Origin: Cephalotus follicularis
Taxonomy: Eukaryota > Streptophyta > Magnoliopsida > Oxalidales > Cephalotaceae
Length of the DNA: 64,000 nucleotides
Assembly: GCA_001972305.1 (NCBI GenBank)
Contig: BDDD01001781.1
Location: 45,114-109,113 of the forward strand
Direction of reading: 5' to 3'
A program made the position numbers and the translations under genes. Below, one piece after another: positions 1 to 64,000 of this stretch. The notes under the pieces were generated by a model. The model ran no database searches, was not told where the DNA came from, and was given only the letters and a program-made list of their open reading frames with translations. Every line of letters begins with the position of its first letter. Within the stretch, counting starts at the first letter, position 1.

Positions 1-615
1 TTTCAAAAGAAAACAACTTTATATTGGATATTATAAACTTATGTAATATTGCTATTGAATTGATTGCATTGTTTATCTATGCTTATTGCCATTAGTTGGG
101 TGATAGGAGACATCACTGGTTACGGGTTACGGTGTGGTCCTATGTGCCAGGAGTTGGCTAGAGCTTCCACCACACTTATCTGCATTGCAGATCCTGATTG
201 TTACCTGCCCGCTAAATGCCGGTAGAATTAACCTGATCTATCATCTTCGGTGTGAGTTAGCGACATGTGACACCCAAAACACTGTGTTGATTGATTTTAC
301 CCTTGTGCGGTATTCCAGAATTGTATTGTCTATGGCCACTTGGCATGTCTGCTTATATATATTGAAATACTTATATATATGTTATTTCAGATAAATGACA
401 TGCATGTGACGATGGAGAAGATTAGCACCATCATACTATGAGGTCCCATAGCTTGTAGCCAAGGGATTGAAGGACAACGGCTAATCATTAGAATTTCAGG
501 CTAAGTGATAGACGTCAAGAAAGGTGCTTGTTGAAGCATAATTTTGGAAAACTTCTCTTTATGTTAAGGTTGTTATTCCAAATGTAAAGTATTGAAATGA
601 ACAATCACACTCCGT
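1..615 (+). mobile_element. Fragment of an L3-family LTR (3' part)
   Basis: This stretch can be aligned by eye with the solo L3 LTR whose halves lie at 18600-18747 and 25927-26300. Shared blocks are the 'ccaggagttggctagagc' block near 147, a 'ttatctgcattgcagat' block, 'acccttgtgcggtattc' near 300, 'ggccacttggcatg' near 334, 'aggacaacggctaat' near 469 and 'aatcacactccg' near 603. The left end lies outside the window and the true LTR 3' end (expected GTGTGACA) is missing because a copia-like LTR begins at 616. No coding potential is visible; the 86-residue open frame at 134-394 has no recognisable domain. The family is inferred to belong to the chromovirus-type LTRs seen elsewhere in the window. 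Confidence 0.7.
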
Positions 616-1750
616 TGTTGTATACCAATGAATAAACTACAAGGGGGGGGGGGGCGGCTGAATTGTAGTTTCTAAGAATTATTTAATCTTTTCGCAATTT
701 AAAACAATGAACAGCAAAAAACAAGCAATAGCAATTTAACCAACAATACAAAGAGAAAGAGTTTGAGAGATTGCAAACACTAGTTTAGAGTGGTTCGGCG
801 TAACTCTTGCCTACGTCCACTTTTCCCAAGGATCTCCTTGAGTTTCCACTAGTTCTCCGAATACAATTCCGGGTGCTATTCGGTACACCTTTGTGATTGA
901 CCTCAATCACTTACAATTCTATTGGGTTCACTCCCCAATTTCACTTAGGGTTCACTCCCCTATTACAATCAAAATAGATGAAGTAGTGTTTTGATCTAAA
1001 CCTCTCACTAGGTTGGATATTACAAGATAAATTTGCTCAATGTAATTGAATACAAAGATAGGTTAAGATATGACAAAGAAAGCTTTTGAGATAAGCTTTT
1101 AATTTGAATGCTTGATGTGTATTTCTCTTGAATGATCTTTGTGCTTGTGTTTCTCTTCTTGTTTTTCTTCAAAACATTCGTGTATATATATCTTCTTGCC
1201 TCATAGATCCGTTGGGAATCTATTGCGATTAGTTCCATAATGGAATGTCCACTAAAACTCTGTCAGAAAGTGTTCCAGCCGACCAAAGCGTCGACTGTCA
1301 CCTTTAAAGCGTCGACGCTTATGTGACCGTTGGAGGCTTTAATTTGAAATAGTCAGCTTAAAGCGCAGGCGTTCTTAGCGTTGGAGTCGACCAGTACCTC
1401 AAAGCGCTGACGCTTAAGGTTGGGCGTCGACGCTTAGGCCCAATTGAATTCCAATTGGCTTCCCTGGTTTAATCGGCAAATTTTGTGTCAAAGCGCAGAC
1501 GCTTTGAATTTGGGCATCGACGGTTGGCTATTTCTTCCACTTCTCCAAGTGCTTCACCGGTAGACGCTTTGTTCTTGTCTCAACTGCCTCTCAAAGCGCT
1601 GACGCTTTATATTTAAGCGTCGAAGGTTTGCCCTGTATCTGCAGAATTCTTGTGCTGTTTTGTGCATTCCATGGCTTTCTTGCACATCAAGAAACTTTGT
1701 TAAACACAAATATGTTATCATCAAAACTTATGATTGAGACATAAATGTCA
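616..1750 (-). mobile_element. Ty1/copia-like (SIRE/Maximus-style) LTR, orientation minus
   Basis: Read on the minus strand the segment starts TGACATTTATGTC, runs through 'gttttgatgataaca', and ends 'tatacaaca', giving TG...CA ends. The run of twelve G at 643-654 next to 'cggctgaattgtagt' and the block 'gagtggttcggcgtaactc' near 788 resemble sequences common in LTRs of SIRE-like copia elements; this resemblance is from memory. No matching target-site duplication is seen (tccgt on the left, aaaag on the right) and the left neighbour is L3 while the right neighbour is L4, so the piece may have been joined by recombination. It contains an array of CGTCGACG words at 1287-1640. The 72-residue open frame at 1020-1238 is not considered a gene. 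Confidence 0.5.
1287..1640. repeat. Phased palindromic word array (AGCGTCGACGCTT type) in copia-like LTR
   Basis: Words related to AAGCGTCGACGCTTT begin at 1287, 1308, 1362, 1377, 1403, 1423, 1492, 1513, 1595 and 1616. Neighbouring words within a pair are 20-21 bp apart (1287/1308, 1403/1423, 1492/1513, 1595/1616). Sequence between words differs from pair to pair. The perfect form contains the palindrome GTCGAC flanked by AAGC/GCTT. Confidence 0.8.
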
Positions 1751-1827
1751 AAAAGGACCAATCCAATCAATCCAGTAAATCCAATCAATCCGCTGTTTCT
1801 TGCACAAAGGTCAAGCAAACAGTGTTT

Positions 1828-2022
1828 GTGGGTGTCCCTAACCATCTCCTGGGCCCTAGGCACACAATCCCGCCCCTAGTCCTCATGACACCTCCGTCAC
1901 GGAACTAGCGCAGCATCAATCCGGTCATTGTGGGTGTCCCTAGCCAACTCCTGGCTCCTAGGCGCACAATCCCGCCCCTAGCCCTCATGACACCTCCGTC
2001 ACGGAACTAGCGCAACATCAAT
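1828..2022. repeat. Two-copy tandem repeat of about 100 bp inside the L4 LTR
   Basis: A unit beginning 'gtgggtgtccctaaccatct' at about 1828 and containing 'cacaatcccgcccctag', 'ctcatgacacctccgtca' and 'ggaactagcgca' is repeated with few differences from about 1927. It overlaps the block containing 'ccaggagttggc' (minus strand) that is shared by L3 and L4 LTRs. The single solo L4 at 24990-25270 carries related but more diverged duplicated blocks. Confidence 0.85.
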
Positions 2023-2315
2023 CCAAACACAAACATCAATCAATCAATCCAAAATCAAACCGTTTCCAAGTAGTTTATAGGTTAAAAATACTGGAATTAT
2101 TACATTTATTCAAAATGTAATCCATCTTTAAACCCCTGCTTCAATCCCTTGAAAACACACATTTATCAAAATACATGTTTTCATTTCAAATAATGATTGT
2201 ATAAAATCATGTATGCACTTCTAAAATGATAAAACGCTTTAGAATTCAATCATATTCAGTCAACAATCCATTCCATATCAAAATGAAATGCAAAGATATG
2301 CTCAAAGTTCGGGTC

Positions 2316-2615
2316 AGTCCCTAACTAGTCGGCTGTGTCTCTTGACAGTCGGCTGTTTTCCTTCAACAGTCGGCTGTCCTAATTCTTGTAGTCGGCTGCC
2401 TCCCTTAACAGTCGGCTGTCTCCTCTTGACAGTCGGCTGTCTACCTCGCCCAGTCGGCTGCCCTCAAATGGCAGTCAACTACACAACCTTCTACAGATAT
2501 GTTCTATTAAACGTATGAACAGTCGACTGATTCTTACGTCCAGTCGGCTGCTTCCTATTGAGTAGTCGGCTGTTCTTGCTCACCAGTCAACTGCCCGCCT
2601 TTGTAGTCGATTGGA
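2316..2615. repeat. Phased palindromic word array (AGTCGGCTG / AGTCGACTG type), L4 LTR
   Basis: Words start at 2327, 2347, 2368, 2390, 2410, 2431, 2452 and 2473, then 2521, 2542, 2564, 2585 and 2605. Intervals are 20, 21, 22, 20, 21, 21, 21, (48), 21, 22, 21, 20. The words are AGTCGGCTG, AGTCGACTG, AGTCAACTG and AGTCGATTG; sequence between them is mostly pyrimidine and not conserved. This is the most regular array in the window. Confidence 0.9.
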
Positions 2616-3063
2616 TTTACATCAGTAGACAAAAACAACAGAAAAATGCATGTCTTTCTCAATTCAATCCAATCCAAAACAAGCATTCAACAGCAATAAC
2701 ACACATTTATGCTCATAACACAGTCCATAGCATGCATTTCGTCCATTAACCTCCATTATAACAAAACTTAAATAACAATTATGAGATTTACCCATACCTT
2801 AGAATTCCAAGTTAGGAATTGCAATCCACCTCTTTAAGTTCCAATCCGAGTTCCCAAGTCTCTGAATCCGTCCGGCAACTCCAACAGATCCGGTTCTCGC
2901 CACTGATCCAAGCTTCCAAAACCACAGCTCAACACAAGGCTCTTTGGATCCACAACACATACACTTCCTCCTCTTCCTCTCCACACTTTGATTCTCTCTT
3001 CTCCTCTCTGCGAAAATGGTGAAGATTGGAGGAAGAAAACGCGTCTTTTATGGAGGAAAACAC

Positions 3064-3064
<1 letters not shown>

Positions 3065-3177: not shown

Positions 3178-3310
3178 AGTCGACGGCCTAGACCTGGTAG
3201 TCGGATGTCTCTACCGACACACCTCCAGCCGGCTGCTTCCCACAGCAGTCTGCTGGTTTCCACTCAAAAGGTGGTCCAGTCGACTGTCCCTCTTGGGCAG
3301 TCGACTTCCC
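3178..3310. repeat. Second AGTCGACTG word array of the L4 LTR
   Basis: Words start at 3178, 3199, 3227 (AGCCGGCTG), 3247 (AGTCTGCTG), 3278 and 3299, with intervals 21, 28, 20, 31 and 21. It corresponds to the array at 23347-23496 of the other L4 copy and sits about 150-275 bp inside the LTR start. Confidence 0.8.
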
Positions 3311-8253: not shown

Positions 8254-8380
8254 GCGTTGATGGTTTATTCTTAGGCGTTGACGGTTTCATTGCATAAAAG
8301 GACAAAGCGCTGACCAAAGCGTCGACTAAACACAGCATAAATGGTACAAAGCGGCAACGTTCAAAATACAAGCGTCGACG
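8254..8380. repeat. CGTCGACG word array, downstream cluster of the G1 LTR
   Basis: Words at about 8256 (gttgat), 8277 (gttgac), 8309 (gctgac), 8321 (gtcgac), 8353 (ggcaac) and 8374 (gtcgac). Most intervals are 21 or 32 bp. Flanks follow the AAAGCGtcgaCGGTTT pattern. Confidence 0.75.
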
Positions 8381-9129: not shown

Positions 9130-9260
9130 ACTAAAGCGTCGACAGTTTACTGAATGCTTCGACGGTTAATTCTTAAGTTACAAAACACGTCACAGTCACA
9201 CGTTTAGGCGTCCACGTGTCCAACAGTATTGCCAAAGCGTCGACGGTTCTAAACAAAGCG
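9130..9260. repeat. CGTCGACG word array, upstream cluster of the G1 LTR
   Basis: Contains aaagcgtcgacagttt, atgcttcgacggtt, aggcgtccacgtg, aaagcgtcgacggtt and aaagcgtaggcacttt within about 130 bp. It lies 140-270 bp inside the LTR start, equivalent in place to the upstream array of L4. Confidence 0.75.
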
Positions 9261-9398: not shown

Positions 9399-11070
9399 TT
9401 AAACATGTTGCAAAGGTCAAATACTGAAAAACATAAACTATTAATTAACTCATTGTTCAAGGACAATTCCTAACAGAAAGCATAGCAGGATCACACTCTT
9501 AGAAGATCCTCTGACATAAGCAAACATCTCTCAATCACACTTTCTCCTGGTGTCCTGATAACCTGCCGCATGGAAACAAAAATGCGGCTGAGCAAACGTC
9601 GGTACGAATAAAGAATGTAAAATAGTAAACAATAATTTAAAAGCAATAAGATTTCAAAAGTCATCTCGAAACAGAAATCTTAAGCAGTATATCAGTGTAA
9701 ACATTCCTTGAAGTCAAATCCATAACTTCAGAAACATACACGAAAACATTACTTTCATATTGAGTCATACAACATATCATGTATCAAAACATATAGATGG
9801 CAAGGGAGGCGCTAATTCCACATGCACAGTAGAATTGAAGTGTACGACACCACACAAGTCAATTCTCATATCATATCATATCACACATTGCATATCTCCA
9901 CACGTATGCCATATACTAGAATCGACTCATACGCCTCAATCATACATAACAGATCCATAAATCCTCCTCATGGGATTTATTCAAAACATAGAGACACGCC
10001 GTAGACTAATCACACTGCTACGGAAGTGTCATGTCCCCATGCCAAGCCTACGACATGCTTATGGTACGCCCTATAGGTGGGTACGAATACTCAGTATTTT
10101 ATCATTTTGAAAACATTGATATATCATAATCAATTTAAAATTCATGAAAACTTGCCTTTTTCGAAACATATTCAAAAATCATTAACAAAAGATATCATAA
10201 CATACATTTCATAATCGGAACATCAACTCATTTATTTCCACTACAAAGAGATGATCATAACATAGTTCATCACATATCATAGCATAAGTATAAAGTCAGG
10301 AACATTCAATTCGCAAGATGTCAAAACTGTCTTTATCTTTAGAATCATATCAAAATCATAAAACATAACCGAGTTCATAAAACCGATGGAACATGTCATA
10401 AAAACAAAGCTGAATTTATCGAACAGAGTGTCAAAGAGCAGAATATTCGTACCTTGTGCAATAAAAAAAATAACTTACGAAAACACTGATAAATCTTAAC
10501 TGCCCTTCGTAGCACAATAATCTAAAACACACAAAACCATTCATATAAGGGTCTGAATATCATTGTGGACATAAAACATTATCATTACGGTGTTTATAAC
10601 AGACCCCGATTAAACAAAAATACAAACTGACCAAAATAATTGAAAGCATAAATTTTCTGGACAAACCAGCCGACTGTTACAGAGCTCCAGCCGACTGTTG
10701 GAAGCTTTGCAATCGACTATCCAATAGGGCTAGCTGACTACATAAACTGGACTACAGCTAGTCGACCATGACAGGGGTCAAATCGACTGTGCAAGGCAAA
10801 GCAGTCGACTGATTCATAAGGCAGTCGTCTACTCAACATATGACAATCGACTGTCCATAAGAACAGTGGACTGTTCTAGATAATAGAACAGTAGAAACTC
10901 TACAATTTTATGCAGAAACTTGTCAAAACATGGATAACAATATACCAGAGGCCTACAAACATTTACATATGACATAGTATGACATCTAGACAGCAGAAAA
11001 ACACAGAATTAACATGACCATGTGACAAGTGGTTAAACTCAAGGAAAAAGGGTGACTTTAAAACACATGC
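9399..11070 (-). mobile_element. L2 LTR, second copy, part 1
   Basis: This matches the complete L2 LTR of G2 (33280-34920) from 'ttaaacatgttgcaaagg' onward, including the 'atcctaacagaaagcata' block, the GCCGCAT...ATGCGGC hairpin near 9562 and the 'cctataggtgggtacgaata' block. Its left part was separated by the G1 insertion at 9398 and is not in the window. It continues at 13604 after the solo L1 LTR. Short open frames at 9760-10004 are chance. Confidence 0.88.
10668..10875. repeat. AGTCGACTG word array in L2 (second copy)
   Basis: Words begin at 10668, 10689, 10711, 10732, 10760, 10781, 10803, 10823, 10845 and 10865; intervals 21, 22, 21, 28, 21, 22, 20, 22, 20. Variants include AGCCGACTG, AATCGACTA, AGCTGACTA and AGTGGACTG. 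The 11-13 bp between words are not conserved. Confidence 0.9.
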
Positions 11071-11197
11071 TGTAATATCCCGTTCTATGTTGACATGTTT
11101 ATATGTTTATTTTTTGGGATCATATCCTCTTTGACTTATGCTATGGTTTGTGGACCTTTTTGATTTTTGCTTGAATTGTTGTTTTCTGGGCACAAAG

Positions 11198-11330
11198 CAC
11201 CGACGCCCTCTTTAGAACCACCGATGCTTTGGCTGCTGTGTGGCACATCGACGCCTAAACGTGTGACTTCGACGTGTTTTGTATTTAAGTGCTTAACCGT
11301 CGACGCTTTAAGTAAACAGTCGACGCTTTG
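11198..11330. repeat. CGTCGACG word array, upstream cluster of solo L1
   Basis: The core CGACG or CGATG begins at 11201, 11222, 11249, 11270, 11301 and 11321, giving intervals 21, 27, 21, 31 and 20. Words read ACCGACGCC, ACCGATGCTTT, ATCGACGCC, TTCGACGTG, GTCGACGCTTT. Confidence 0.82.
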
Positions 11331-12084
11331 TTCGGCTTTCCATATCAGCTTGGACGGTGACAGTGTTTTTGGAAGGTTGGATTCTTTCCTTTTTCTGGAT
11401 ATCCAATTTCCTTAAGTGTTAGACGTGTTTTGGTTAGTATGGTAATGTCCTAATATACTGATTTTGACAATTAAAACGTGGATTTGTACTTTAATCAGAC
11501 AAAATCGTTTTAAAAAGCATAAACCTTTTCTGCACTTTTGACAAACAAACAACAACCTTACAAGCCATTTTCTGCATTGATTTCGACTCTTTCTGGAGGT
11601 AATTTCTAAATGAAATTTGTAGTTTATACTATGTAGTTTTTGTATCATCTTTTAATTTGTGTTAAAACCGACTATAACATGATCTAGAGCATGATTTTGG
11701 AATCTTGTTAAAACTAAATTCTGTTGTTGTTTTTATATGTTCATTCAAGAGTTTTATGCATAACTACTGATGTTAATCCTTAAAAACAAAGAAATCATAC
11801 TATTGATGAAGGTAGATATATGTATATATCACTGGTTTTAGGATTTAAACAAAAGAAATTCGAAATTTTGTTATGGTTGCATAAACTATTTATATGGAAG
11901 AAAATTAGGTTTCAAAATGGGTTTTACTTTCTGTATGAAATCATAAGGTTATTCTGGCATTTTTGAAGTAATATAACATGTCACCGAACCTACATGTTGT
12001 TGGTTATACATTGTGTTTATCAAAAATCGGATTATTCATGAAATTGAAAATGCTTTCTGCAATTGTTATTCTGTGCCTGGCGCA

Positions 12085-12215
12085 AACCGTCGACGCTTTA
12101 GTTCCGAGCGTCGCCGCTTTGTGTTGTTTTATGCCTTAGTCTGTCGACTCTTGGATCGACGCTTTGTCCTTTTGTGCTATTAAACCGTTGACACCTAGGA
12201 ATAAACGGTCGACGC
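12085..12215. repeat. CGTCGACG word array, downstream cluster of solo L1
   Basis: Contains accgtcgacgcttt, agcgtcgccgcttt, gtcgactcttgg, atcgacgcttt, accgttgacacc and ggtcgacgctttat in about 125 bp. It is the inverted counterpart of the 8254-8380 cluster in the G1 LTR. Confidence 0.8.
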
Positions 12216-13598
12216 TTTATGACTGTTTTGATGTTTTGATTCCTTTTATGTTATGTGATATTTGGACTCGTATGTTTAGGTCATTATATCGTTCCTGGTG
12301 AAGTTTAGGACATTCTAGGATACTTTTGTCCAGTATTCGTATTTATTTAGATTGTTCGATCAGCTAAGGTGCGGATTCTTCGTTCTTTGGTACTCCTTCG
12401 TTTAAACTTTAATTGATGATTTTTGTACGTTTTATCGAATGGATTTATGTTCCTGGTTTTATCAGCAATAAAACTTGTGTTTTGATACGGATGTTCTCAT
12501 TTTGATAATAATCTTACGGAAATGGATTTCAACATTGTTACTTCGGATATTGATTATTAATAAGCATATTTTCTGTTATCGAAAGTGTGATAATTGTTTT
12601 AGACATGGCTTCCCCTTTCGGAAGTATGTTAAACTTCAGATACAGTTAAGATTTTGTTTTCAGATAAGATCAGAAATTGTTTAGAAATTGTTAAAATTGT
12701 TTTAGATTAAAACAATGTTTTTAGCATAATAACATACAGAGAAAAACCCTACCTATGAGATATCATAGGCATGTTCTTTGGCACGGAGGACATGACACCT
12801 ACCGTGGCGGTGTGATCGGTCTACGGTGTCTCTTTTAAATATGTATCCTGAGGGTAGGATATGGATCCTTTTGAGGCGTATGAGTATACTCTAGTTATTG
12901 TCAGAACTCAGAAATTCAGTATTGGGATTGATTGTGTAGTGCCATACATGACTTTTCCGTCAGAGCATGTGGGCCTCGCGAACCCCTTGCACCTATATAT
13001 GTATGTATGTCAGAAATTCTCTGTTATGGAATTATGAATCAGATAATGTTTTGAATTATGATATTATGTTTTCGCAAAGTTATGATGGTTTTACGAATGT
13101 TCGCTTTTAATATTCTGTTTTACTTTTCAAGAATATTTATTATGTTGCTTTACTGAATTTAAAGTTCAAATTATTTTGTTTACCGTTTACTGTTTTAATT
13201 CCTTATCCGTACTGAGGTTTGCTCAGCCGCGTTTTTGTTTTTATGCGGCAGGTTTTCAGGAGCATGGGGGAAACAAGTGACGAGAGTTACCCATTTGTCA
13301 GAGGACTATCTTGGAGTCAGTCCTTGTGTTTTCCAGTAGGATCAGATTAGTTTTCGTTAAAAACAGCTTCAGATTTTGGTTTTGTTTCAGTTTATGATCT
13401 CAGTATTTGGTTATAGGATTATGATTCGTTTTTGTTTATGATTTGTTAAAGTTTTCAGACTCTGTTTTATATCAGTTTATTATAAGATCTACTTTCTGAC
13501 CACCACATCCGTTTCGTATCAGTATTTTGTTTAGATTTTCGTTATGTTTCAGTTTGCTATTATGAACTGTAAGGGCTCCCACCATCGGGGGTGTTACA

Positions 13599-17727: not shown

Positions 17728-18115
17728 GCGTCGATGCTTTGAATGTGACAGTCGACATTTTAGGCTTAAGTGTCGATGCCTTAGAAATATTGTATTGATG
17801 CCTAGAGTCAGGGTCTAAACAGACATTGATGCCACGTGTACACGTTGACGCGTAAGGTTCCTACCTAACGCATTGACGCTAAGTGAAGTGTTAATGCGTA
17901 AGGCTTCCATGCTACACGTCGACGCCATTGATATACCTTGACACCTAAAAGACTTTTGTGGTTGATAAGCATGGTATGCGCATTAACGCTTAAGGATACT
18001 GTCTATACATTGACGTCTAGGTTATACGTCGACGCCATAAGGACTGTTTTACACGTTAACGCCATAGATATACGTTGATGCGATGGATGCACGTTGACAT
18101 CTTTATACACGTCGA
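17728..18115. repeat. CGTCGACG word array in solo L3
   Basis: gtcgat/gtcgac/attgat-type cores begin at 17730, 17751, 17772, about 17794, 17825, 17844 and 17872, with intervals 21, 21, 22, 31, 19 and 28; more degenerate words (acgtcgacgcc, acgttgatgcg, acgtcgatgac) continue to about 18115. Many copies look like CpG-to-TpG decay products. Confidence 0.8.
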
Positions 18116-18854: not shown

Positions 18855-20908
18855 TGTCACACCCGTTCCCTGTAATAACCAATCTCCTATCGAGAACGGA
18901 TATGACGTCCCACATAACAACTTCCTTTCGGAAGTCACCATATGGATTTATATAGAACTCACTTTAAACTTGGAATTCAAAAAGTTAAACCTTTTCCAAA
19001 ACTTTGAAAATTTTTCTAACTCTTAAATTTTAACGAAAATCGGGCATGTAGTATCTATTTATAGGACTATGCCCCCTGTAAAGAAAAACACAGTTTATAA
19101 TCTCACTCCCGAAGGAGGAATCAACAGTTTATAATCGGGCTCAGCCCTCAGCAAACCAAAATTTAAAGCAGTAAACTTAGGTTGGGCTCAGCCTCAACCA
19201 TTTCAACAAGTAATAAAAGTAAATCTATAGAGCTCGGCCCTTTTAAAAGCAAAACCATAAAAGAAAAACCATTATATGTAAACATAAGTAAATGCTAAAT
19301 TAAATGTTGATGTAGAATGCTATGCATGTTTTAAATCCTGGTAGCATGCCCTGCCTCCATGGTCAATCATCTATAGTAGCTGACCTAGCAACTCCTTGCC
19401 CTCATCTGAAAAGGAAACACTGGGAGGGAGTTAGTCCAAATGACTAAGTGAGTAGAAACAAAACATCTCCTGTACATCCATCAAAGGATTGGATGTGCTG
19501 AAGAAAATAGAGAGTCATATAAAACAAGAATATGTGCAACAACGAGGAAATGTAAATCATAAACAAAGAAATGATCAATAAGATCCCATATGATAGTCAA
19601 CATCAAAAGAAGATCTCAAGATCCACAAGATTTCATGATCCACAAAAGAATATCGAAATCATAAAGAAATGTCGAGATCCTCGAAATGTAAACGAAGTCC
19701 ACAATATAAATGAAATCCATGATGTAAATAAGAATCACAATATAAACAAGATATAGAAAAGTGAACATCAATATTCATAAAGGAAATCGAGATCCATAGA
19801 CAATATTAAGATTTACAACGATATCGAGATCTCATAACGGAATCCACAAATATAATCGATACTCAGCAGTGGCTCCATAACTATAAACATAAGTCAAGAA
19901 TTGAACAAGATCCACAAAAGATAGGATGATCCACAAGGATGTCAAGCACATATCAATACTCAACGATATAGTAACATAAGAATCCACGGGACAAATTTCA
20001 ATGATCAAATCAATGCTCTACAAATACGATAGAATCACAATAATATCAGTATACATGAATATCAAGAATCAAGACATAATCATGGATAATAAATCAAAGC
20101 ATGTGCCCATCATAAGATATAGGAGGATGCTGGTACCAATCCATTACTGCCTCATATCTGCCGCCAAATCACATGGCGTCATATCATACCCCCGCCAAAT
20201 CACATGACGTCATATCATAACCGCTGCAGCAATAATACTAGGTAAGGCTACAGGATGTGATCATCATCCATCATACACCGGTGTAGAGTGCCTACCCGAG
20301 ACTCGCCGGGAATCGGCGCCAAAAGTGGCGCCACAAGCGGCAGCGAGTCGCCTTGACTCAGTCGACTCACTCGCTAAAATCCGGCCGTTTCCGGCCGAAT
20401 CACGCCACAACAGCCGTCGAAATGGGAAGAGGGGGTCTCCTAGACCGAAACCGCACCCATCCGCGACGCCAAAAGTGGCGGACGGCGGTGGCAGTGGCCA
20501 AAGCGCACTGACAGTGGCTATCGGGCGTGGGGAGAAGAGAAGGAAAGAAGAAGAAAAGAGGGAGAGGGAAAGCTTATCGGTGATGGTGAGGACCCGCGCC
20601 GCTCTTCCCGGTGTCGCGCGCTTCCCGGCGTCTCTCTCTCCCGGTTCTGCATCTCTCTCCCGTCTCTCTGTCTCAACTCTCTCCCTCTCTCTGTTCTCTT
20701 TCTTCAATTCGGGCGCTATGCGCCCGAACCCTTACATAAATTTTATGTCTGGCGCGTCTAGCGCCTTCTAGACGCGCCAGACACCATTTTTTTTTTATAT
20801 ATAACATAATTAATATATAATAATAGTAATTACTAAAATACACTTCACCGATTTGCACACTTACGTGTTTTGCACGTCGACCTCGTAAAAGTAACACGGG
20901 GTGTTACA
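18855..20908 (-). mobile_element. L5 3' LTR (2054 bp)
   Basis: The minus strand starts TGTAACACCCCGTGTTAC at 20908 and ends CGGGTGTGACA at 18855. The GC-rich part at 20290-20760 gives overlapping long open frames on both strands (147 and 148 residues), which repeat partly at 22945-23220 and show no domain; I treat them as non-coding. The segment 19565-19990 is rich in a 'gatccacaa' word. Confidence 0.87.
19565..19990. repeat. Degenerate 'AGATCCACAAGAT' word cluster in the L5 LTR
   Basis: Repeated near-copies of gatccacaa, gagatcc and gaaatcc occur, for example near 19580, 19618, 19638, 19675, 19706, 19790, 19830, 19908 and 19930. The cluster is AT-rich and less regular than the GTCGAC arrays; it creates the low-complexity 61-residue open frame at 19571-19756. 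Confidence 0.55.
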
Positions 20909-22945: not shown

Positions 22946-23270
22946 TGAGGACCCGCGCCGCTCTTCCCGGTGTCGCGCGCTTCTCGGCGTCTCTCTCTCC
23001 CTGTTCTGCATCTCTCTCCCGTCTCTCTGTCTCAACTCTCTCCCTCTCTCTGTTCTCTTTCTTCAATTCGGGCGCTATGCGCCCGAACCCTTACATAAAT
23101 TTTATGTCTGGCGCGTCTAGCGCCTTCTAGACGCGCCAGACACCATTTTTTTTTATTTATATATAACATAATTAATATATAATAATAGTAATTACTAAAA
23201 TACACTTCACCGATTTGCACACTTACGTGTTTTGCACGTCGACCTCATAAAAGTAACACGGGGTGTTACA
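22946..23270 (-). mobile_element. L5 5' LTR remnant (325 bp)
   Basis: Aligns end to end with 20587-20908 with only about three substitutions and one small insertion seen by eye (for example cttccc/cttctc, ctcccg/ctccct, cctcgt/cctcat, and extra bases in the T-run). The match starts abruptly at 22946, so the rest of this LTR was removed by deletion. Confidence 0.88.
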
Positions 23271-23346: not shown

Positions 23347-23496
23347 AGTCGACTGGTATGGAGGACCAGCCGACTGGATGGCTGGATATGGGGGCAGTCG
23401 ACTGGTAGGATGAACCAGTCGACTGACCAACTGTCGTGACACTTGGCAACAGACTGCCAGGCGAACAGCCGACTGCTAGGGAAAGGCAGTCGACTA
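23347..23496. repeat. AGTCGACTG word array, upstream cluster of solo L4
   Basis: Words start at 23347, 23368, 23396, 23417, 23467 and 23488; intervals 21, 28, 21, 50, 21. It sits about 180-330 bp inside the LTR start when the nested L5 element is ignored. Confidence 0.88.
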
Positions 23497-24314: not shown

Positions 24315-24581
24315 AGCCGACTATCGAAGGAAGACAGTCAACTACTCAATGAGGCCAGTCGACTGCCAATGGAAAGCATTCGACTGTTCATACTTCATAA
24401 TGCCCAGAAAATGGTGGGAAGTGTAACCTGGGTAATGCTCCCGTATGGGTGTACTGTAACAGTCGACTGTTGAAGGACAACAACCGACTGCCTAATGGAA
24501 AGTCGACTGGTAGAAGGAGCCAGCTGACTACTGGTACTGTTAGATCCAGAACAGTCAACTGGTAAGGATTCTAGCCGACTG
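24315..24581. repeat. AGTCGACTG word array, downstream cluster of solo L4
   Basis: Words start at 24315, 24336, 24357, 24378, then 24461, 24482, 24501, 24522, 24553 and 24573. Intervals are 21, 21, 21, (83), 21, 19, 21, 31 and 20. An 80-bp AT-rich spacer divides the cluster just as a 48-bp interval does in the other L4 copy. Confidence 0.9.
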
Positions 24582-39240: not shown

Positions 39241-39417
39241 AACACAAAATCGACACTTACAGAAAATCATGCAAAGTTTATTGAATTATTCAAAACAAGA
39301 AATAGACTAAATAAAATATGTAAGATTAAATTGGTTTTAGGGTATAGAAACTAACCATAGATTATATTGAGAACTCACTTACTTTGAACGTTCAAAGCTT
39401 GGTAATCAACAGTTGCT

Positions 39418-39600: not shown

Positions 39601-40484
39601 AATCTTATTCACGGACAAAGTGTATGTGGATTTTAATCAGACGTACAAAGTGTGTTTGAAGTCAGAAAATTGAAGAACAAATCAAAGGTTCGAGGATTTT
39701 TATTGATTGAGTTTCTCAGTACATCTAAGTGTTGTTCTAACCCTATAAATCTTGAAAGTTTAGCTAGAAAATATTGGAATAAAAACTGTAAAAACTGAAG
39801 AAAGAAAGAGAGAAAGGCCACAATCGGCTGAGAAAGGTTATGTTCCTCTAAGGTTCTTCTTTCCTTTATATAGCCTTACAATACTATGCATAAAAGGAAA
39901 GAAAATCCCTCAACATTCTTACTTAAATTACAACAAAAAGTTTCCTAAAATACAAAGTCAAATGTGCTAGAGAATTCTTATAATTGCCGACCAAACCATG
40001 CTCACGTGCGCAAGTTGCCATTCAGAGCAAACCACTAAGTGTCGACACTTTTGAAGTAAGTGTTGCCCCTTATAGCATTTGTATTGAACCAAAGCGCTAA
40101 CATTCGCATATAATAGTTGGAGATTGAATGGTTAAGCGTCTACGGTATCATTTTAAGTGCCACCACTCAACACAATTTCGTTTTAGCTTTGACAGTAGAG
40201 ACCTCATAAGAGTTGAAAGCAAAGCATCAGACTAGAAAACTATCTATATCAATGAAGAGCACAACCTGGTAGAGCATACTTGAGACAGGCAAAGGCAGAC
40301 CTCATAATTCTTAAAGATCAGACTAGGAAAATGGCAGAGCAGCAAAGTGGTAGACTTGCGGTGTTGGTAATAGGGCAGAGCAAACTATGAAATGCCATTA
40401 GCGGAGCAGAGAAGTTGGTAAGGCTAAAGCAGATTTGATAAAACGGAGCAAACTTGAAGAGCTTGTAGTCTGGTGCAGTGCAAC

Positions 40485-40575
40485 TCTTAAGCGTCGACGA
40501 TTTCTTTAAAACCGCCAGCGCTTTATATCTAAGCGTTGACGCTTTGAATTAACCTGTCGGCGCTTTGATGCAAAT
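40485..40575. repeat. CGTCGACG word cluster near the start of A1 3' LTR
   Basis: Contains aagcgtcgacgattt, accgccagcgcttt, aagcgttgacgcttt and ctgtcggcgcttt at roughly 20-21 bp steps. The 5' LTR equivalent is 59388-59465. Confidence 0.8.
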
Positions 40576-42165: not shown

Positions 42166-44491
42166 TGTTAGATTAGGGTGTCCATGCAAGCCACGATGAG
42201 GCTGCAGACATATGTACTTTAGATATGACACACTATTGAATCATACATTCTTGGCTCCATTCGTGTTATATTGTGCATATTCAGTAAACATTGGCATCTG
42301 GCTATATGTATTATCCCAAGCCGTCTCAAAGGATCAGTTGATCACCATGTCAATTGAATACACATATAGCGCCCTTTTTATTAAGGGCTGGATCTCGTGC
42401 CTGAAAGGTTATGACAATGAGATCCTTACTTCTTTGTGACAAAAGTTCCAAGTCATAGGTTCACTCTCTTAGGATAATTGATGAACCGCAAAGACTTGTC
42501 GTGTTATGCTTTCTCCCAATGGTAAATGAGGATGGATCATTTCATTGCCATTTGTGTTTTACCCTAAAGTTGATACGGGGAACGTGCAAAGGCACAACTC
42601 TGAACTGACCCACCATAGGTTATCTATATGGGGAGTCAAAACCTCTGTCAATAGAGTTCCTATTTTCGGGGTAGTGTTTAGTCAAAGGTGACTAGTAAAT
42701 CATACGTGATTTACGTTGTGTCCTTAGACCTGAGTGGCTGACATGCATTGTGCAGTAACAGATTGGCTTTGATTTCTACCTCCCCTAGCACTAGCCACGT
42801 GATGGCAAAAGGGTTGTCTCTGGGCCTTGTGGGAGCTGCATCGAGATGTATGGTCGAGTGCGCGAGATGGGATCGTCACACCCGTGTTGAGGATTATAGG
42901 CTCTATAACATCTATGACCGTTGAAGACTTAAAGTCCTGGCCAGGCACTGGGAGATTGGGAACGAGAGGTTTCCGGGGATATCTCCCATCGTCTCAACGC
43001 GATCATGGAATTATAGTTATCGCGGTTTTACCTAGGGGTGAAATTAATCCAAACCCTAGTCCACGGACGAAGACGAGATGATGAAGGACATACGGCACAT
43101 AAACCGATGACATTGATAAAGCACTTGGGAACCAACTAACGGATGATAGATGTGGTACTTTGTAGTCCACGGATCCCGGGGTGATTAAACATCACACCGG
43201 GACTATTAGTTGGATAGTCGTACCAGAACTTTGGGATGTTCTGGGAAATTTATCATCGTACCGAAAATCCACCATGCTTTTAGGTCCTGCCTGATTATTG
43301 GAAAAGAGGAGCATGCTGCACAGATGCTCTCTTGGTGGTAAATCTAGTTTTTAACTAGTATGTATTAATTAGACATTTGTGGTTTGTTTCGCTCTCCATA
43401 ATTTGCCTTATTAATATATTAAGAGATTTAATGCTGGAGCATGATTTAATTTTAATTAAATCAAATTAAAGAGAGAGTCTTTAATTATTAAAGGGAGAAA
43501 CAAATTAAAAATGTGAGAGACATTTTGATAAAAGGAGAAAAAGAAAACAAAATAAGGGACTTTGTCTTTTATTAGACAAGACACACAGAAATACACACGG
43601 CTACGCACAAAACAGCGGAAGCACACTCAATGCGCGGAGTGTTTCCTGCAGGAGAAGACGGTCGTAATTGCGTCGGTGGATGGGAAAGGAATTGTGCTTT
43701 CATCCATGGTACTCTCCCCTCTCTCTCCCCGTTTTTTCTCTTCTTCTCTCTCTGTTTTCAGTGACCCATTTTTGCATCACTCCTGCTGCCGGATTCTCTT
43801 ATGTCGCTGACGGTCATGGTAGGTGGAGCCAATCCTTGGCTCTACCTATCTTGACCCTAGATTAGGTGTTTACCGATGTATTTTGCCCAGATTTTGAATG
43901 GAGAGTCGACTCTGCCGAGTTGACTCGCTGTGCGCCGTGGCATGGCATTTCTGGTCGAGTCACGACCAGTCTTTGGTTGCATTGCAAAGATCGGGAGCTT
44001 GGTGACCTGTGGTGGCACAACCGGTCCATGATGAGTCTCAGTGAGTCATTGCCTCTGCCAGCTGATCCAGCGCATTCCAGGGGGCTTCCCGTCGAGTCTC
44101 TGCCACCAGTGGATAGATAGGCGCATCTGGAGTCAATTGTTGTCTTGATCGGCATCTGACATGCTCACTGGATTTCGGGTAGTGGGTCCGATGACTGGCG
44201 GTGGCTACTGCAAGCTTGTAGCGGCAAAGTGGTGGAGCCTCCAACGTTGGTATGGTTGCTGCCCTTTTATATTTATGTTTACCGATATGGTTTCGGTTTT
44301 TCTTTATGTGCATGTTTGATAATTGGTTTTGTTCGATTGTTAATTAAACAGTGATCCTCGGCTTTTCTATTTGGTACTAAAATGTTAGTGTGAACCTTGA
44401 CTTCGTGTCTTGGTATTTTTGAAAAATTAAAATTATACACACTAGCGTCCTATGACCAAATTGACCGGGAACCCTTGCTAGGTTTCCAACA
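42166..44491 (+). mobile_element. C1 5' LTR (2326 bp)
   Basis: Starts TGTTAGATTAGGGTG and ends GGTTTCCAACA, next to the PBS. It aligns with 49453-52218. GAGTCGACTC-type words occur at 43900-43935 ('gagagtcgactctgccgag', 'gttgactcgctg'). Open frames such as 42212-42439, 43562-43865 and 44038-44313 are not conserved between the two LTRs and carry no domain. Confidence 0.92.
43900..43935. repeat. GAGTCGACTC-type words in copia LTR
   Basis: Reads GAGAGTCGACTCTGCC then GAGTTGACTCGC, two inverted-repeat words about 21 bp apart. The 3' LTR counterpart at 51615-51650 reads GAGTGGACTC then GAGTCGACTC. Confidence 0.78.
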
Positions 44492-49452: not shown

Positions 49453-52218
49453 TGTTAGATTAGGGTGTCCCTGCAAGCCACGAGGAGGCTGCAGACATAT
49501 GTACTTTACATATGACACACTCTTGAATCATACATTCTTAGTTCCATTCATGTTCTGTTGTGCATATTTAGTAAACATTGGCATCTGGCTACATGTATTA
49601 TCCCAAACCGTCTCAACGAATCAGTTGATAACCATGTCAACTGAATACTCATATAGCGCCCTGTCCATAAAAGGTTGGATCTCGTGCCTGAGAGGTTATG
49701 AGTGTAACAACCCGATCCTTAACCACATGAGAAATTTTCCACTTTTGTCCCACGCATAACATACAGCGCCCATACATCTGCATTTCCACATGGGCCATCA
49801 CGGTTTTGTCCTACTTGATGGATTGGTTAGACATACAGGGAGGTCACCAATCCTGATTTTGCCCTGAGCGTAGCACGCTTAACCTTGGATTTTCCACTAA
49901 CTCCTCAGCCAATCCATAAAAAGGCGACTCATAAGATTAGGTTGAAGGATCGTTTCTTATATAGCACAGTCATAGTTTTCCACCTTTTTGATGGATCCAG
50001 TTCATTCCTATGACAAGGGCGACTCCATCTCATGGAGAGCTCTTCCCCATGGTGGCTTCATCTCATGGATAGCCCTTTCCTCTTGTGCACTCTTAAGTGG
50101 GGTGTCACAATGAGAATGAGATCCTTACTCCCTTGTGACGAAAGTTCCAAGTCACAGGTTCGCTCTCTTAGGGAACTTGATGAACCGCAAAGACTTTTCG
50201 TGTTATGCTTGCTCCGAATGGTAAAGGAGGATGGATTATCTCAATGCCATTTGGGTTTTACCCTAAAGCTGATGCGGGGAGCGTGCAGTGGCACAACACT
50301 AAATTGACCCACCATAGGTTATCTATTTTGAGAGTCAACACCTCTGTCAATAGAGTTCCTATTGTCGGGGTAGTGTTTAGTCAAAGGTGACTAGTAAATC
50401 ATACGTGATTTACGTTGTGTCCTTAGACCTAAGTGGCTGGCATGCATTGTGCAGTAACTGCTTGGCTTTGATTTTCGCCTTCCCCAGCACTAGGCACGTG
50501 CTGGCAAAAGGGTTGTCTTTAGGCCTTGTGGGAGCTGTATCGAGATGTATGGACGAGTGCACAAGATGAGACCGTCACACCCGTGTTGAGGGTTATAGGC
50601 TCTATAACATCTATGACCATTGAAGACTTAAAGTCCTGGCCAGGCACTGGGAGATTGGGAACGAGAGGTTTCCGAGGATATCTCCCATAGTCTTAGTGTG
50701 ATCATGGAATTATAGTTATCGTGGTTTTACCTGGGGGTGACATTAATCCAAACCCTAGTCCGCAGTCGGAGTGGAGATGATGAAAGACATATGGCACACA
50801 AACCAATGACAGTGATAAAGCACTGAGGAACTGGCTAATGAATGATAGACGTGGTACTTTGTAGTCCGAGGATTCGGGGGAGATTAAAGATCACACCGAG
50901 GCTATTAGTTGGATAGTCGTACCAGAACTTTTGGATGTTCTAGAAGATTTATCATCGTACCTGAAATCCACCAGGCTTTCGGGTCCCGCCTGATTATTGG
51001 AAAAGTGGAGCTTGCTGCACACATGCTCGCTTGGTGGTAAATCTAGTTGTTAACTAGTATATATTAATTAGACATTTGGGGTTGGTTTCTCTCTCCTCAA
51101 TTTTTCTAATTAATATATTAAGAGATTTAATGCCTGAGCATGATTTAATTTTAATTAAATCAAATTAAAGAAAGAGTCCTTAATTATTGAAGGGAGAAAC
51201 AAATTAACAATGTGAGAGACATTTTTATAAAAGGAGAAAAAGAAAACAAAAGGAGAGAATTTGTATTTTATTAGCCAAGACATGCCAAAATGCGCAGGCT
51301 ACGTGCAAAATAGGGAAAACGCACGCAGTGCGTGCGTTTCGTGCCAGGGGCGTGTTTTCGGCCTGAGAAGATGGCCGTGTTGGCACCGGTGGTTAGGAAA
51401 GGAGTTGTGCTTTCATCCATGGTACTCTCCCGTCTCTCTCTCCTCGTTTTTTTCTTCTTCTTTCTCTGTTTTCAGTGACGCATTTTTGCGTCACTCCCAT
51501 TGCCGGCTTCTCTTCTGCCGCCGACGATCATGGTAGGTGGAGCCAACCCTTGGCTTTACCTATCTTGACCCTAGATTAGGTGTTCCCGGTGTTTTTTGGC
51601 ATGATTTTGAATGGAGAGTGGACTCTGGCGAGTCGACTCGCTATGCACCGTGGCTTGGCGTTCTGAGCAGAGTCAGGGCGAGTCTTTGGTTGCAATGCAA
51701 AGATTGGGAGCTTGGCGACCTGTGGTGGTGTGACCGGTCCATGTCGAGTCTCACTGAGTAAAACTCAGTGAGTCTTCACTGCTACCAGCTATTTCAGCGC
51801 CTTCCAAGGCACTTCCTGCCGAGTCTCCGCCACCAGTGGATAGATAGGCGCATATGGAGTCCATTGGTGTCTTGATCAGCGTCTGACATGCTCGACGGAT
51901 TCCGGGCAGTGGGTCCGACGACGGGCGATGGCTACTGCAAGCTTGTTGCGGCAAAGTGGTGGATCCTCCAACGTTGGTATGGTTGCTTCCCTTTTATATT
52001 TATGTTTACCGATATGGTTTCGGTTTGTCTTTATATGCATGCTTGATAATTGGTTTTGTTCGATTGTTAATTAAATGGTGAGCCTCTCCTTTTCTATTTG
52101 GTACTAAGATGTCAGTGTGAACCTTGACTTCCTGTCTTGGTGTTTTTGAAAAATTAAAATTATACACACTAGAGTCCAAGGACCAAATAGACCGGGAACC
52201 CTTGCCAAGTTTCCAACA
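49453..52218 (+). mobile_element. C1 3' LTR (2766 bp including insertion)
   Basis: Starts TGTTAGATTAGGGTGTCCC and ends AAGTTTCCAACA. It aligns with the 5' LTR except for the 407-bp insertion at 49703-50109. GAGTCGACTC-type words lie at 51615-51650 and 'cactgagtaaaactcagtgag', an inverted repeat, at 51752-51772. Open frames here are not shared in sense with the 5' LTR. Confidence 0.92.
49703..50109 (+). mobile_element. 407-bp TRIM-like solo LTR
   Basis: Starts TGTAACAACCCGATCC and ends GTGGGGTGTCACA, flanked by a perfect atgag duplication (49698-49702 and 50110-50114). It is present in the C1 3' LTR but absent from the 5' LTR, where the text reads 'gaaaggttatgacaatgag'. Contains 'agcgtagcacgcttaacctt', a phrase seen in short plant solo LTRs. 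Too short to encode anything. Confidence 0.92.
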
Positions 52219-55611: not shown

Positions 55612-55705
55612 GTCGACTGAATGTCGTAAAGAGTCGACAATAGACTAGCAAAGCATCGACAGTATACTTAAAGGCATCGACGGTGAGCTTTAAGGCGTCG
55701 ACGGT
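55612..55705. repeat. CGTCGACG word array near the end of A1 5' LTR
   Basis: Cores gtcgac/atcgac start at 55612, 55633, 55655, 55676 and 55697; intervals 21, 22, 21, 21. The array has one word more than the 3' LTR and includes an AGTCGAC variant at 55632. Confidence 0.9.
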
Positions 55706-57186: not shown

Positions 57187-57335
57187 CGACGATAGTTTTT
57201 TCCCAAAGCATCGAAAGTTTATTCTAAGCGTCGTTAGTTTCCTCCACTTAAAGCGTCGACAATTTCTCCTTAAGCATCGACTATTTCACCTTAAGCGTCC
57301 ACGGTCACTTATTAAGCATCAACGGTTTCTAGCGC
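57187..57335. repeat. CGTCGACG word array in solo L3 (55947-58370)
   Basis: Cores begin at 57210 (atcgaa), 57230 (gtcgtt), 57255 (gtcgac), 57276 (atcgac), 57297 (gtccac) and 57318 (atcaac); intervals 20, 25, 21, 21, 21. A second group lies at 58085-58165 (aaagcgtcaaaag, gagcgtcgacgg, aagcgtcgaagc, ggcatcagcgg). Confidence 0.85.
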
Positions 57336-58934: not shown

Positions 58935-59060
58935 AAGCGTCAACACTTTCGAAGTAAGCATTGTCGCTTATAACATTTTGTTTGAACCAAAGCGCTGACA
59001 TTTGCATATAACAGTTGGCGCTTGAATGGTTAAGCGTCGACGGTATCATTTTAAGCGTCG
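58935..59060. repeat. Middle CGTCGACG word cluster of A1 5' LTR
   Basis: Contains aagcgtcaacacttt, aagcattgtcgctt, aaagcgctgacattt, aagcgtcgacggta and aagcgtcgccactc. More degenerate than the outer clusters. The 3' LTR equivalent is 40028-40150. Confidence 0.7.
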
Positions 59061-59387: not shown

Positions 59388-59468
59388 AGCGTCGACACTT
59401 TCTTTAAAACCGGTAACGTTTTATATCTAAGTGTAGACACTTTGAATGAACCCGTCGACGCTTTGATG
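59388..59468. repeat. CGTCGACG word cluster near the start of A1 5' LTR
   Basis: Contains aagcgtcgacacttt, accggtaacgtttt, aagtgtagacacttt and cccgtcgacgcttt at about 20-21 bp steps. Confidence 0.8.
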
Positions 59469-59649
59469 AAAATTCTGCATAACTGAAGCTTTAGTCTCTT
59501 AAATTTTTGCCAATTGAACTAGTATTAATGCACTTTGATCATTTTGCCCTTGTTGCTAAAAATCAATAGAATACAACCGCAGTAATATGTTCCAAGAATA
59601 AAAACATAATAATTAAATCCTTCAAAAGAACATATTTTTATGCTAAACA

Positions 59650-59815
59650 GTGGTCTGACCTCAAGCAACGAGGCCTGATTTCAGGCCGTGAGGTTTGACC
59701 TTAAGGTATGACTTTCAAGGAGCGAGGTCTTACCTCAAGCACCGAGGTCTGCCATCATGCAACGAGGTTTGCCTTCAAGCAGTGAGGTCTGCCTTCAAGG
59801 AGCGAGGTGTGACGA
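59650..59815. repeat. GAGGTCTGACCTC word array, right half
   Basis: Continues the array interrupted by A1, with ggtctgacctcaagcaacg, gaggtttgacc, gaggtcttacctcaagc, gaggtctgcc and gaggtgtgac. Steps are about 20-21 bp. It ends near 59813. Confidence 0.87.
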
Positions 59816-62140: not shown

Positions 62141-62425
62141 TCGATGTCTATCATACACATCGATGTCTTTTCTGGGTCTATAGCAAAAGCATCGACGTCT
62201 TTGGATAAGGATCGACGTCTTTTCTGGGCAACACAAAGAACTATGAACAAGGGAACGACGTCTTTCATCATAGGGATCGACGTCTTTGTGTAAAATTGAC
62301 CTGTAACTTAGGACCAGAAGGGATCAACGTCTTTCATCTAAAGGGTCGACGTCTTTCAAGCGCATCTCAGCAAAACGCGACTTTTACAAGAAGACATCGA
62401 CGCCTTTCAAAAGAAGTCGACGCCT
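62141..62425. repeat. TCGACGTCTTT word array in A2 LTR
   Basis: TCGACG or TCGATG cores start at 62141, 62160, 62192, 62212, 62255, 62277, 62324, 62346, 62397 and 62417. Intervals 19, 32, 20, 43, 22, 47, 22, 51, 20: words come in pairs about 20-22 bp apart. The core palindrome here is GACGTC rather than GTCGAC. Confidence 0.88.
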
Positions 62426-62811: not shown

Positions 62812-62980
62812 ACGGAGTCTACTCATACGATTTGTCGCAACGAACACACTTCATATAGACCTAGCATGTCTACTCATACGCCTTGCCGTCGTTATCATGC
62901 AGTACTTCGTATAGACCTAGCATGTCTACTCATACGTCTTGTCATCACCGCCGCACTTCGTATAGACCTAGCTGCCGCTG
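62812..62980. repeat. Tandem 'GTCTACTCATACG' repeats in A2 LTR
   Basis: The phrase gtctactcatacg occurs at about 62817, 62867 and 62925, and 'cttcrtatagacctagc' follows each at about 62850, 62906 and 62956; period about 50-58 bp. It is the reverse complement of the A1 repeat 'cgtatgagtagac', which fits the opposite orientation of the two elements. Confidence 0.88.
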
Positions 62981-63225
62981 ATTATCAAGGTATGATCGTT
63001 GAACTTCATGGAATTGAACTTCTAAACCCTAAAACCACTTTTCAATTATATCTTTTTCTTAGCTTTTATTCATTAGTTTGATAGTTTATCTTGAAATTGG
63101 TATACTTCGCCTAGGTTGGATAGATTATAACTAGTTTATGTTTCCCTGTGTTCAACCCGTTACTGCATGATCCGTGCACTTGCGGCCATAAATTTTAAAA
63201 CATTCTTTTTACGTGAACAAGTTTT

Positions 63226-63243
63226 TGGCGCCATTGCCGGGGA
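63226..63243 (+). other. A2 primer binding site (tRNA-Asp type)
   Basis: TGGCGCCATTGCCGGGGA lies six bases after the LTR end and differs by one base from the standard Athila tRNA-Asp primer site. Confidence 0.93.
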
Positions 63244-63522
63244 AACGGTTTAAATTAGTTTAAATTTATTCGACTGATTCATAGTATTTATTTTTGTGTT
63301 TTTCTAACAATTCCAATTTAATTTAAATAGGTTCAGCAAAACTTTTAACAAACCCTAACCTCATTTGCATAATCTTTAATAAATTCTAACTTAGATAATT
63401 AGGTTCAGCATAAATTTTAACAACATTTTAACTTCATCATTGCATAACCTTTAACAATTTTCTAACCTTAGATAAATTAGGTTTCTTGCATTAGCTTAGG
63501 TTCTCTGACTTAGTTTTAGTTT

Positions 63523-63807
63523 ATGACCGATTGGGTGCGTGGTCCAAACCATCGCTTAGAAAGTATTAATCAACCAAGACCAATGGCGGACGCACGCCCA
63601 CTTCAAACTCTTCGCGATAAATTCTACCCTGCTAGGACAGCGCAACCATCCAGTATCCTGTTGCCTACACCTAACGGAAACAATTTTGAGTTAAAATCAC
63701 AGTTCATTAGCATGCTCCCGCACTTTCATGGTGGTTGGCGAAATCATCCAAACTTCTCATGGAGTCAAGGGCAAAACATGCGAGGACAATCAAGCTTTTT
63801 GGGGTAG
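63523..63807 (+). pseudogene. A2 gag, internally deleted
   Basis: The frame begins MTDWVRGPNHRLESINQPRP, contains MADARPLQTLRDKFYPARTA and FELKSQFISMLPHFHG, then continues in frame directly with GWRNHPNFSWSQGQNMRGQS and a stop. In A1 these two blocks are separated by several hundred codons of capsid (compare 55076-54900 with 54200-54100). Most of the capsid is therefore deleted with the frame preserved. After the stop (63807) related text continues (PSSFPSQSTPHKTFPRFS, SFPPQNHFSNQQTSG) to the end of the window. Confidence 0.87.
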
Positions 63808-64000
63808 CCTTCTAGCGTTGGTGCCCCACCTCAACACCATTCGGGATAACCTTCGAGCTTCCCTAGCCAGTCTACACCACATAAGACATTTCCAAGGTTC
63901 TCCCAAAATTCAAACACTATTCGACCATCCTTCCCACCACAAAATCATTTCTCAAATCAACAAACATCGGGTTTGCCGAACTAAAAGGATGAGACATCTA

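Follow-up and report, generated by a model that had tools for sequence, protein, structure and literature searches.

Rows of GTCGAC-cored words as candidate regulatory modules in the long terminal repeats of Cephalotus follicularis retrotransposons

A 64,000 bp stretch of the Cephalotus follicularis genome (contig BDDD01001781.1, positions 45,114 to 109,113; hereafter the window) consists of plant-like DNA made up of nested long terminal repeat (LTR) retrotransposons, and it raises the question of why short palindromic words stand in rows in the LTRs of these elements. Such rows, or arrays, had been listed in an earlier note on this sequence for the LTR families called here L1, L2, L3, L4, A1 and A2, for a further LTR around 1287-1640 and for a repeat, U, on either side of an A1 element. 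The comparisons made here suggest that the arrays are probably cis-regulatory modules of the LTRs, that is, rows of binding sites for one or several dyad-recognizing proteins, which were under selection while the elements were active. Positions are those of the window throughout.

The GTCGAC word and its 21 bp step

No hexamer was more over-represented in the window than GTCGAC, with 61 occurrences compared with 5.8 expected, which placed it top when hexamers were ranked by z score. Expected numbers were obtained from dinucleotide shuffles within 1 kb blocks (100 shuffles for palindromes and 60 for the ranking). Fifty-one of the 61 copies were located inside arrays, and the delimited arrays total 4,241 of the 64,000 bp. 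Repeated words were present in all 22 of the stretches that had been listed, and the arrays of the window held between three and 13 words each.

Sequence logos identified the core GTCGAC as the factor common to the arrays, with two main types of arm. A 10 bp word, CAGTCGACTG (CAG type), was found in L2 and L4 (53 words) and a 14 bp word, AAGCGTCGACGSTT (GCG type), in the 1287-1640 LTR, L1, L3 and A1 (52 words); in the logos of both types the information content fell sharply from word to spacer. The word of A2, ATCGACGTCTTT (seven words), was a poor palindrome and that of U a weak one. The ratio of observed to expected CpG was 1.13 inside the arrays and 0.64 elsewhere in the window, and the words were dense in CG and CHG sites.

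The same hexamer was again the most over-represented (116 compared with 17.8 expected, 20 shuffles) in a genome sample of twenty 10 kb stretches, one from each of 20 further contigs, which were taken at regular contig numbers rather than at random and in which 21,709 of 200,000 bases were N. This sample contained 27 arrays, distributed over 14 of the 20 stretches, and clusters of GTCGAC outnumbered those of every other palindromic hexamer (64 tested), the runner-up being ATATAT with 16. Scaled up from the 178 kb of the sample that was readable, these 27 arrays would correspond, very roughly, to 200,000 in the genome. Two pattern scans of viral contigs for arrays gave no matches.

Successive words in the window (those with at most one core mismatch) were separated by 20-22 bp in 56 of 96 steps, compared with 7.5 such steps under random placement (maximum 17 in 2,000 trials); looser word calling gave 81 of 125 steps, and in the sample arrays 64 of 120 steps were of this length. 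Recurrence at about 21 bp, as had been proposed, was thus borne out, and 21 bp was the dominant step genome-wide. In the 1.58 Gb assembly, pairs of GTCGAC numbered 105,145 at 21 bp and 12,877 at 28 bp, the two steps counted for this hexamer, compared with 1,224 and 65, respectively, for the reversed pattern CAGCTG, which is also palindromic. All genome-wide pair counts given here are lower bounds, and a palindromic pattern is identical on both strands. Pairs of CAGTCGACTG were found 25,896 times at 21 bp (control 89) and 47 times at 25 bp (control 0), and pairs of GCGTCGACG at 21 bp 4,986 and 4,895 times on the two strands, partly at the same places (controls 9 and 9). Of the other main steps that had been named (28, 31 and 42 bp), 31-32 bp was the commonest step longer than 22 bp under looser calling (eight cases), followed by 28 bp (five cases), whereas 42 bp occurred just twice.

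The earlier note had also reasoned that all words would face one side of the DNA. The 21 bp step does keep words in phase, whereas the common 28 bp step corresponds to 2.67 turns and is out of phase, so that one-sided facing is not a general rule; for steps outside 20-22 bp a 10.5 bp phase was not significant (n=42, p=0.12), and helical phasing was rejected as a general rule. Among the 28 bp spacers listed between GTCGAC words, many appear to contain a CACG/CGTG word near the middle, which may be a second site between two words. When the arrays of the L2 5' LTR (34566-34740) and 3' LTR (27038-27250) were compared, the alignment placed two gaps in the 5' array, both with ends inside words, which would keep the phase.

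Conservation of words and spacers

Because words had been picked by their core, only the arms, which were not used in picking, were compared with the spacers. Between units of one array in the window, arms differed in 623 of 1,816 comparisons (0.343) and spacers in 2,732 of 4,088 (0.668). Arms were less diverged than spacers in 20 of 20 window arrays, a count that takes mutually copied arrays separately. The sample gave similar values (arms 0.318, spacers 0.675), with arms lower in 27 of 27 arrays. The claims that words stay recognizable while the sequence between them varies, and that this is more than a plain decayed minisatellite would produce, were therefore upheld at the level of units, where divergence of the two fractions was far from equal.

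This contrast is the more telling since the words are built of the fastest-changing sites, and under neutrality they should be the first to decay. Elsewhere in the LTR, CG and CHG sites had changed at 1.9-4.3 times the frequency of other sites in all seven comparisons, in a test whose control LTR pair still holds 69 word sites called by chance. That the words are nevertheless the best-kept part between units points to selection having preserved them while the lineage was active. In the L1 pair, which is the most diverged (73 % identity), CG/CHG sites were changed in 19 of 77 cases within words compared with 153 of 349 in the rest of the LTR (p=0.002). In pairs taken as belonging to the same element (L2 5'/3' and A1 5'/3'), the corresponding numbers were 27 of 118 and 85 of 318 (p=0.46). 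Retention in L1 would be expected if selection precedes insertion, and the null result for same-element pairs if copies are neutral afterwards. The L2 copy L2a, which lies outside any same-element pair, was without the L1-type retention of CG/CHG sites in words, and the support for selection from these sites is consequently mixed.

Possible functions of the arrays and related systems

The two word types were kept almost entirely apart. None of 21 window arrays contained both, and exact CAGTCGACT-GCGTCGACG neighbours (CAG next to GCG) at 21 bp were found twice in the whole assembly, once per strand. Separate arrays of one LTR shared their type (L1, L4, the L4-related LTR that starts at 23264, and A1). 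Sample arrays no more than 2 kb apart agreed in type in six of seven pairs, compared with seven of 12 pairs that were farther apart, types having been assigned by hand and one array (L006 8818) entered as GCG though seven of its 10 words fit neither type. Related LTRs, on the other hand, carried different words. The A1 and A2 LTRs were 81 % identical over their first 128 bp and again 69-72 % identical from just past the TATA box, and the unaligned block between contained AAGCGTCGACGCTT words in A1 and ATCGACGTCTTT words in A2. Similarly, the L1 and L2 LTRs aligned at 62-64 % identity downstream of their arrays, which consist of GCG words in L1 and CAG words in L2.

L1, L4 and the L4-related LTR each contain one array about 0.1-0.3 kb into the LTR and another at 0.8-1.3 kb; L2 has the second alone. 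In both LTR copies of A1 a TATA box (CTATATAAAG) was located at about +890, preceded by two arrays and followed by one. A TATA-like sequence followed the upstream arrays in A1 and A2, and arrays were found downstream of the TATA box as well in A1 and L2. Outside A1, TATA positions are less certain.

A cis-regulatory role is suggested by the words themselves and their recurrence every 21 bp, by the contrast between conserved words and variable spacers, by how rarely the two types mix, by the location in LTRs and by the different words of related LTRs. Protein-binding sites, one of the meanings that the earlier note had offered, are on these grounds the best explanation of the words, and we regard the predicted binding as probable. 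The dyad core (G)TCGA(C) would be read by one or more proteins, with a separate protein or variant for each arm type. Several copies bound at two-turn spacing would then activate transcription, or shield the LTR from silencing, while the element is active. The arrays would grow and shrink by duplication and deletion of units, with selection in active lineages keeping the words while the spacers drift. The simplest guess is that the binding protein is a host transcription factor; DREB/CBF-type AP2 proteins, which read RYCGAC, would fit the core.

Several observations weigh against this interpretation. Gapped alignment revealed a slight similarity of spacers within arrays (mean score -0.167 compared with -0.265 when shuffled for CAG arrays, and -0.176 compared with -0.335 for the other arrays). 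Copies of one array differed about equally in words (108 of 565, 0.191) and in spacers (123 of 664, 0.185), words being lower in five and higher in three of eight comparisons, not all of which are independent. In L2a, compared with two other L2 LTRs, words had even changed more than spacers (38 of 178 and 18 of 192, respectively; p=0.0014). Equal conservation in family alignments was what the earlier note had associated with ordinary subrepeats, and taken literally this is the situation among copies, whereas the unit-to-unit comparison gave the opposite result. Because that comparison reflects a longer history of the active lineage, the equal decay among copies was read as neutral decay of dead copies. 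The separation of word types was not complete either, as two of the 27 sample arrays each held one word called as the other type and many GCG-type arrays contained words fitting neither; moreover, types would also hardly mix if each had arisen clonally and independently of the other. For nine of the 23 arrays examined (21 of the 27 sample arrays plus two of four search loci), no TATA-like box was found within 700 bp, and the TATA matches of L1 were at different places in its two LTRs. Given these inconsistent positions, the TATA box was discarded as a general landmark of the arrays. Finally, U fits the pattern poorly. It is a better conserved 20 bp repeat with a constant left half, GAGGTCT, in which GGTCNGACC occurs at five places and 24 GAGGTC/AAGGTC words were listed, and its inclusion among the palindromic-word arrays was not sustained, since it is a plainer repeat.

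Some of these points would be accommodated if the arrays were functionless, ordinary minisatellites arising from slippage or template switching, which would also be in keeping with the 21 bp units and with copies that differ by gaps roughly one unit long (L2c compared with L2b, and A1a with A1c). The spacer similarity within arrays, the equal divergence of array copies and U itself all agree with such an origin. We consider it very unlikely, however, because neutral decay should not leave words that are alike among near-random spacers when the words are the fastest-decaying sites, and because a single core is found across families with different arms and flanks at a step that is dominant genome-wide. 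It is also quite unlikely that the words act primarily through RNA, as transcript hairpins that serve the element or that host dicing turns into small RNAs. Predicted folding was stronger than that of shuffled sequences in seven of seven arrays, one of them U (z -1.94 to -4.99), and palindrome clusters in maize Sirevirus LTRs are reported to be small-RNA hotspots (PMC5311732, PMC10760457). Any row of palindromes would fold more strongly, however; the A2 words are poor palindromes, and hairpins need neither a strict 21 bp step nor a central CG. Covariation between arms beyond the consensus was non-significant, and conservation of the palindrome through base pairing was rejected for this reason. 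To judge from the folding predictions, RNA structure is possible as a second use of the words.

A role in a life-cycle step other than transcription, such as packaging or dimerization of genomic RNA or a signal for recombination or integration, is hardly to be expected. In A1 and L2, arrays that lie beyond the TATA box would be contained in the transcript, and an A1 element is inserted within a word of U, which as a single insertion is an anecdote. Less improbable, while still unlikely, are arrays of targets for an anti-silencing protein of the VANC type. VANC targets are reported to be short tandem-repeat motifs that differ between related elements (PMC5735166, PMC10398659). The present arrays are similar in that the words of related LTRs differ and exact words of the two main types hardly ever stand next to each other, and the words are dense in CG sites. 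Against this, the classed elements are LTR retrotransposons and not VANDALs, and no candidate protein was found among the 20 of 96 window ORFs that were scanned, in which the domains clearly recognized were limited to those of gag, protease, reverse transcriptase and integrase type.

The arrays have their nearest known counterpart in Sireviruses, a Ty1/copia group whose LTRs carry a palindromic repeated motif (RM; Bousios et al., 2010; PMC2829016). Each of 13 elements there is reported to have a dyad word to itself, most of them with a TATA box and CpG islands close by, a CGG-CCG core signature is found in all RMs of its table 3 except Tnd-1, no common binding factor had been identified, and palindromic word arrays were described as specific to Sireviruses among the Ty1/copia elements studied. 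The arrays described here resemble these RMs in forming clusters of dyad words in the LTR with divergent flanks, in being CpG-rich and in having one consensus word per element; a TATA-like sequence was found near some of the arrays and not near others. A multi-copy palindromic LTR word with divergent flanks, which characterizes the RM, was thus found here too, A2 and U being weak palindromes. A GTC-(N)-GAC dyad is moreover listed in the same source for Vitis (CGGTCGACCG), Osr10 (CGGTCTGACCG) and Osr8 (CGGTCAGACCG). Unlike Sireviruses, L1 and L2 are of the Ty3/gypsy type rather than Ty1/copia, the outer arms are CA-TG or GC-GC rather than CGG-CCG, some arrays are found past the TATA box (A1 and L2), and a 21 bp step dominates, whereas none is reported in the available text of PMC2829016. 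A genome-wide search for pairs of CGGTCGACCG at 21 bp, the one CGG-CCG word and step that was searched, gave none. Among the papers listed in literature searches, judged by title and opening of the abstract, none apart from the Sirevirus paper pointed to a GTCGAC palindrome in LTRs.

Other systems share individual features. The Sirevirus palindrome clusters of a 2016 study, as related in PMC5311732 and PMC10760457, likewise lie in LTR control regions and evolve rapidly; secondary structure and small RNAs are reported there, whereas the present evidence is drawn from DNA sequence. Tnt1-type LTR tandem repeats are also repeated cis elements near the promoter (PMC3601003, PMC2829016), and are given in PMC2829016 as arrays of two or three, in contrast to the arrays of three to 13 words and dominant step found here. 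Where function is concerned, the VANC target arrays of VANDAL elements come closest to the finding that related elements carry different words. As reported (PMC5735166, PMC10398659), they too are non-coding, consist of short tandem-repeat words with changing copy number and differ between related families, and tandem word arrays that differ between relatives were indeed found here (A1 and A2, L1 and L2). Unlike the arrays of the window, they belong to DNA transposons with a known binding protein, and their words (YAGTATTAY, AGTTGTCC and AGTTGTAC) are non-palindromic.

A more far-reaching version of the binding hypothesis, which we consider unlikely, is that the arrays are mutually exclusive 'address codes'. 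Each family would have one GTCGAC-cored dyad array and its own co-evolving DNA-binding or anti-silencing factor, and related families would switch codes at the same LTR stretch without mixing, which would amount to a VANC-like specificity system in LTR retrotransposons. If the regulatory interpretation in its general form is true, palindromic word arrays extend to Ty3/gypsy-type LTRs, and such arrays can make one hexamer stand out across a whole plant genome. The two types that hardly mix (CAGTCGACTG and GCGTCGACGC) would then offer a direct test of what reads LTR control regions, whether for activation or for shielding from silencing.

Elements and arrays of the window

'Many unrelated' was too strong a description of the families, since L1 and L2, L4 and the L4-related LTR, and A1 and A2 are relatives. 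L1 and L2 were 74.6 % identical in their internal regions and 62-71 % identical in parts of their LTRs, and segments of L4 and the L4-related LTR were 60-78 % identical; LTR comparison showed no link of L4 to L1 or L2. A1 and A2 have a primer site of the TGGNGCCNTTGCCG type, which is presumably typical of Athila-like elements. A Pfam scan covering 20 of the 96 window ORFs (≥85 aa) detected clear retroelement domains in three, one weak match below the cut-off (PF04113) and none in the remaining 16. In a protein search, the best identity among 120 listed matches (of 7,850) was 77 %, with names mostly from the Asteraceae, which gave no species assignment. The coding parts beside the L1 and L2 LTRs contained RVP_2, RVT_1, Retrotrans_gag and Tf2-1 SH3 domains, which fit a Ty3/gypsy-type assignment of both. 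Within the 20 ORFs, coding parts gave no class for L3, L4, the 1287-1640 LTR or U.

The array at 1287-1640 consists of AAGCGNNGACGCTT-type words and lies in an LTR for which a copia-like class had been proposed. In L4 (minus strand), whose LTR starts at 3452, array 1 (3178-3310) is close to the LTR start and array 2 (2316-2615) comprises 13 words, with CAGCCGACTG/CAGTCGACTG as the sense word, one 48 bp step and all other steps of 20-22 bp. About 300 bp to the left of array 2, a 102 bp unit is present twice (1826-2024, 92 % matching). The L4-related LTR (plus strand) contains array 1 at 23347-23496 and array 2 at 24315-24581.

The L1 5' LTR (9397-6789, minus strand) adjoins an internal region with retroelement domains and is followed by a match resembling an initiator-Met primer-binding site at 6772 (two mismatches). 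Its arrays are situated at 9130-9260 (about +154 to +255) and 8254-8380 (about +1019 to +1116), both on the minus strand. A second L1 LTR, without an internal region, lies on the plus strand inside an L2 LTR (11070-13598), with arrays at 11198-11330 and 12085-12215. The L2 element, also on the minus strand, has its 5' LTR at 35855-33130 and its 3' LTR at 28374-26470, the latter starting at 28374, on either side of an internal region with retroelement domains, and a similar initiator-Met primer-binding-site-like match is present at 33113 (one mismatch). Both of its arrays, the gapped pair mentioned above, are on the minus strand, and a third L2 copy has an array at 10668-10875 with the word CAGYCGACTG. 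L3 words of the CGTCGACG type form an array with irregular steps at 17728-18115, and an L3-type array was found at 57187-57335.

The A1 element is on the minus strand. In its 3' LTR, the first array is at 40485-40575 (about +175 to +265), another at 40041-40160, absent from the earlier list, lies between this and the TATA box, and the array at 39162-39255 is downstream of the TATA box and close to the 3' end of the LTR. Their counterparts in the 5' LTR are at 59388-59470, 58935-59060 and 55612-55705, respectively. The A2 array (62141-62425, plus strand) occupies the same LTR stretch as the upstream arrays of A1 with its different word. The two parts of U, at 38490-38965 (where the 20 bp unit begins GAGGTCT) and 59650-59815, are one array split by the A1 element. 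The insertion lies inside a GAGGTCTGACCTC word (38960-38970 and 59645-59660), and the flanks GAGGT and GTGGT match as a target duplication at four of five positions. Insertion of LTR retrotransposons into palindromes has reportedly been the topic of an earlier paper (PMC6911290).

A further LTR pair (42166-44491 and 49453-52218), parts of which are 87-90 % identical, has a primer-site match at 44494 and no listed word array, so that not every LTR family here has one. The highest identity among self-matches of the window (98 %) was shown by a direct repeat of about 325 bp at 20587-20908 and 22946-23270, 2.36 kb apart, with one GTCGAC in each copy (20876 and 23238).

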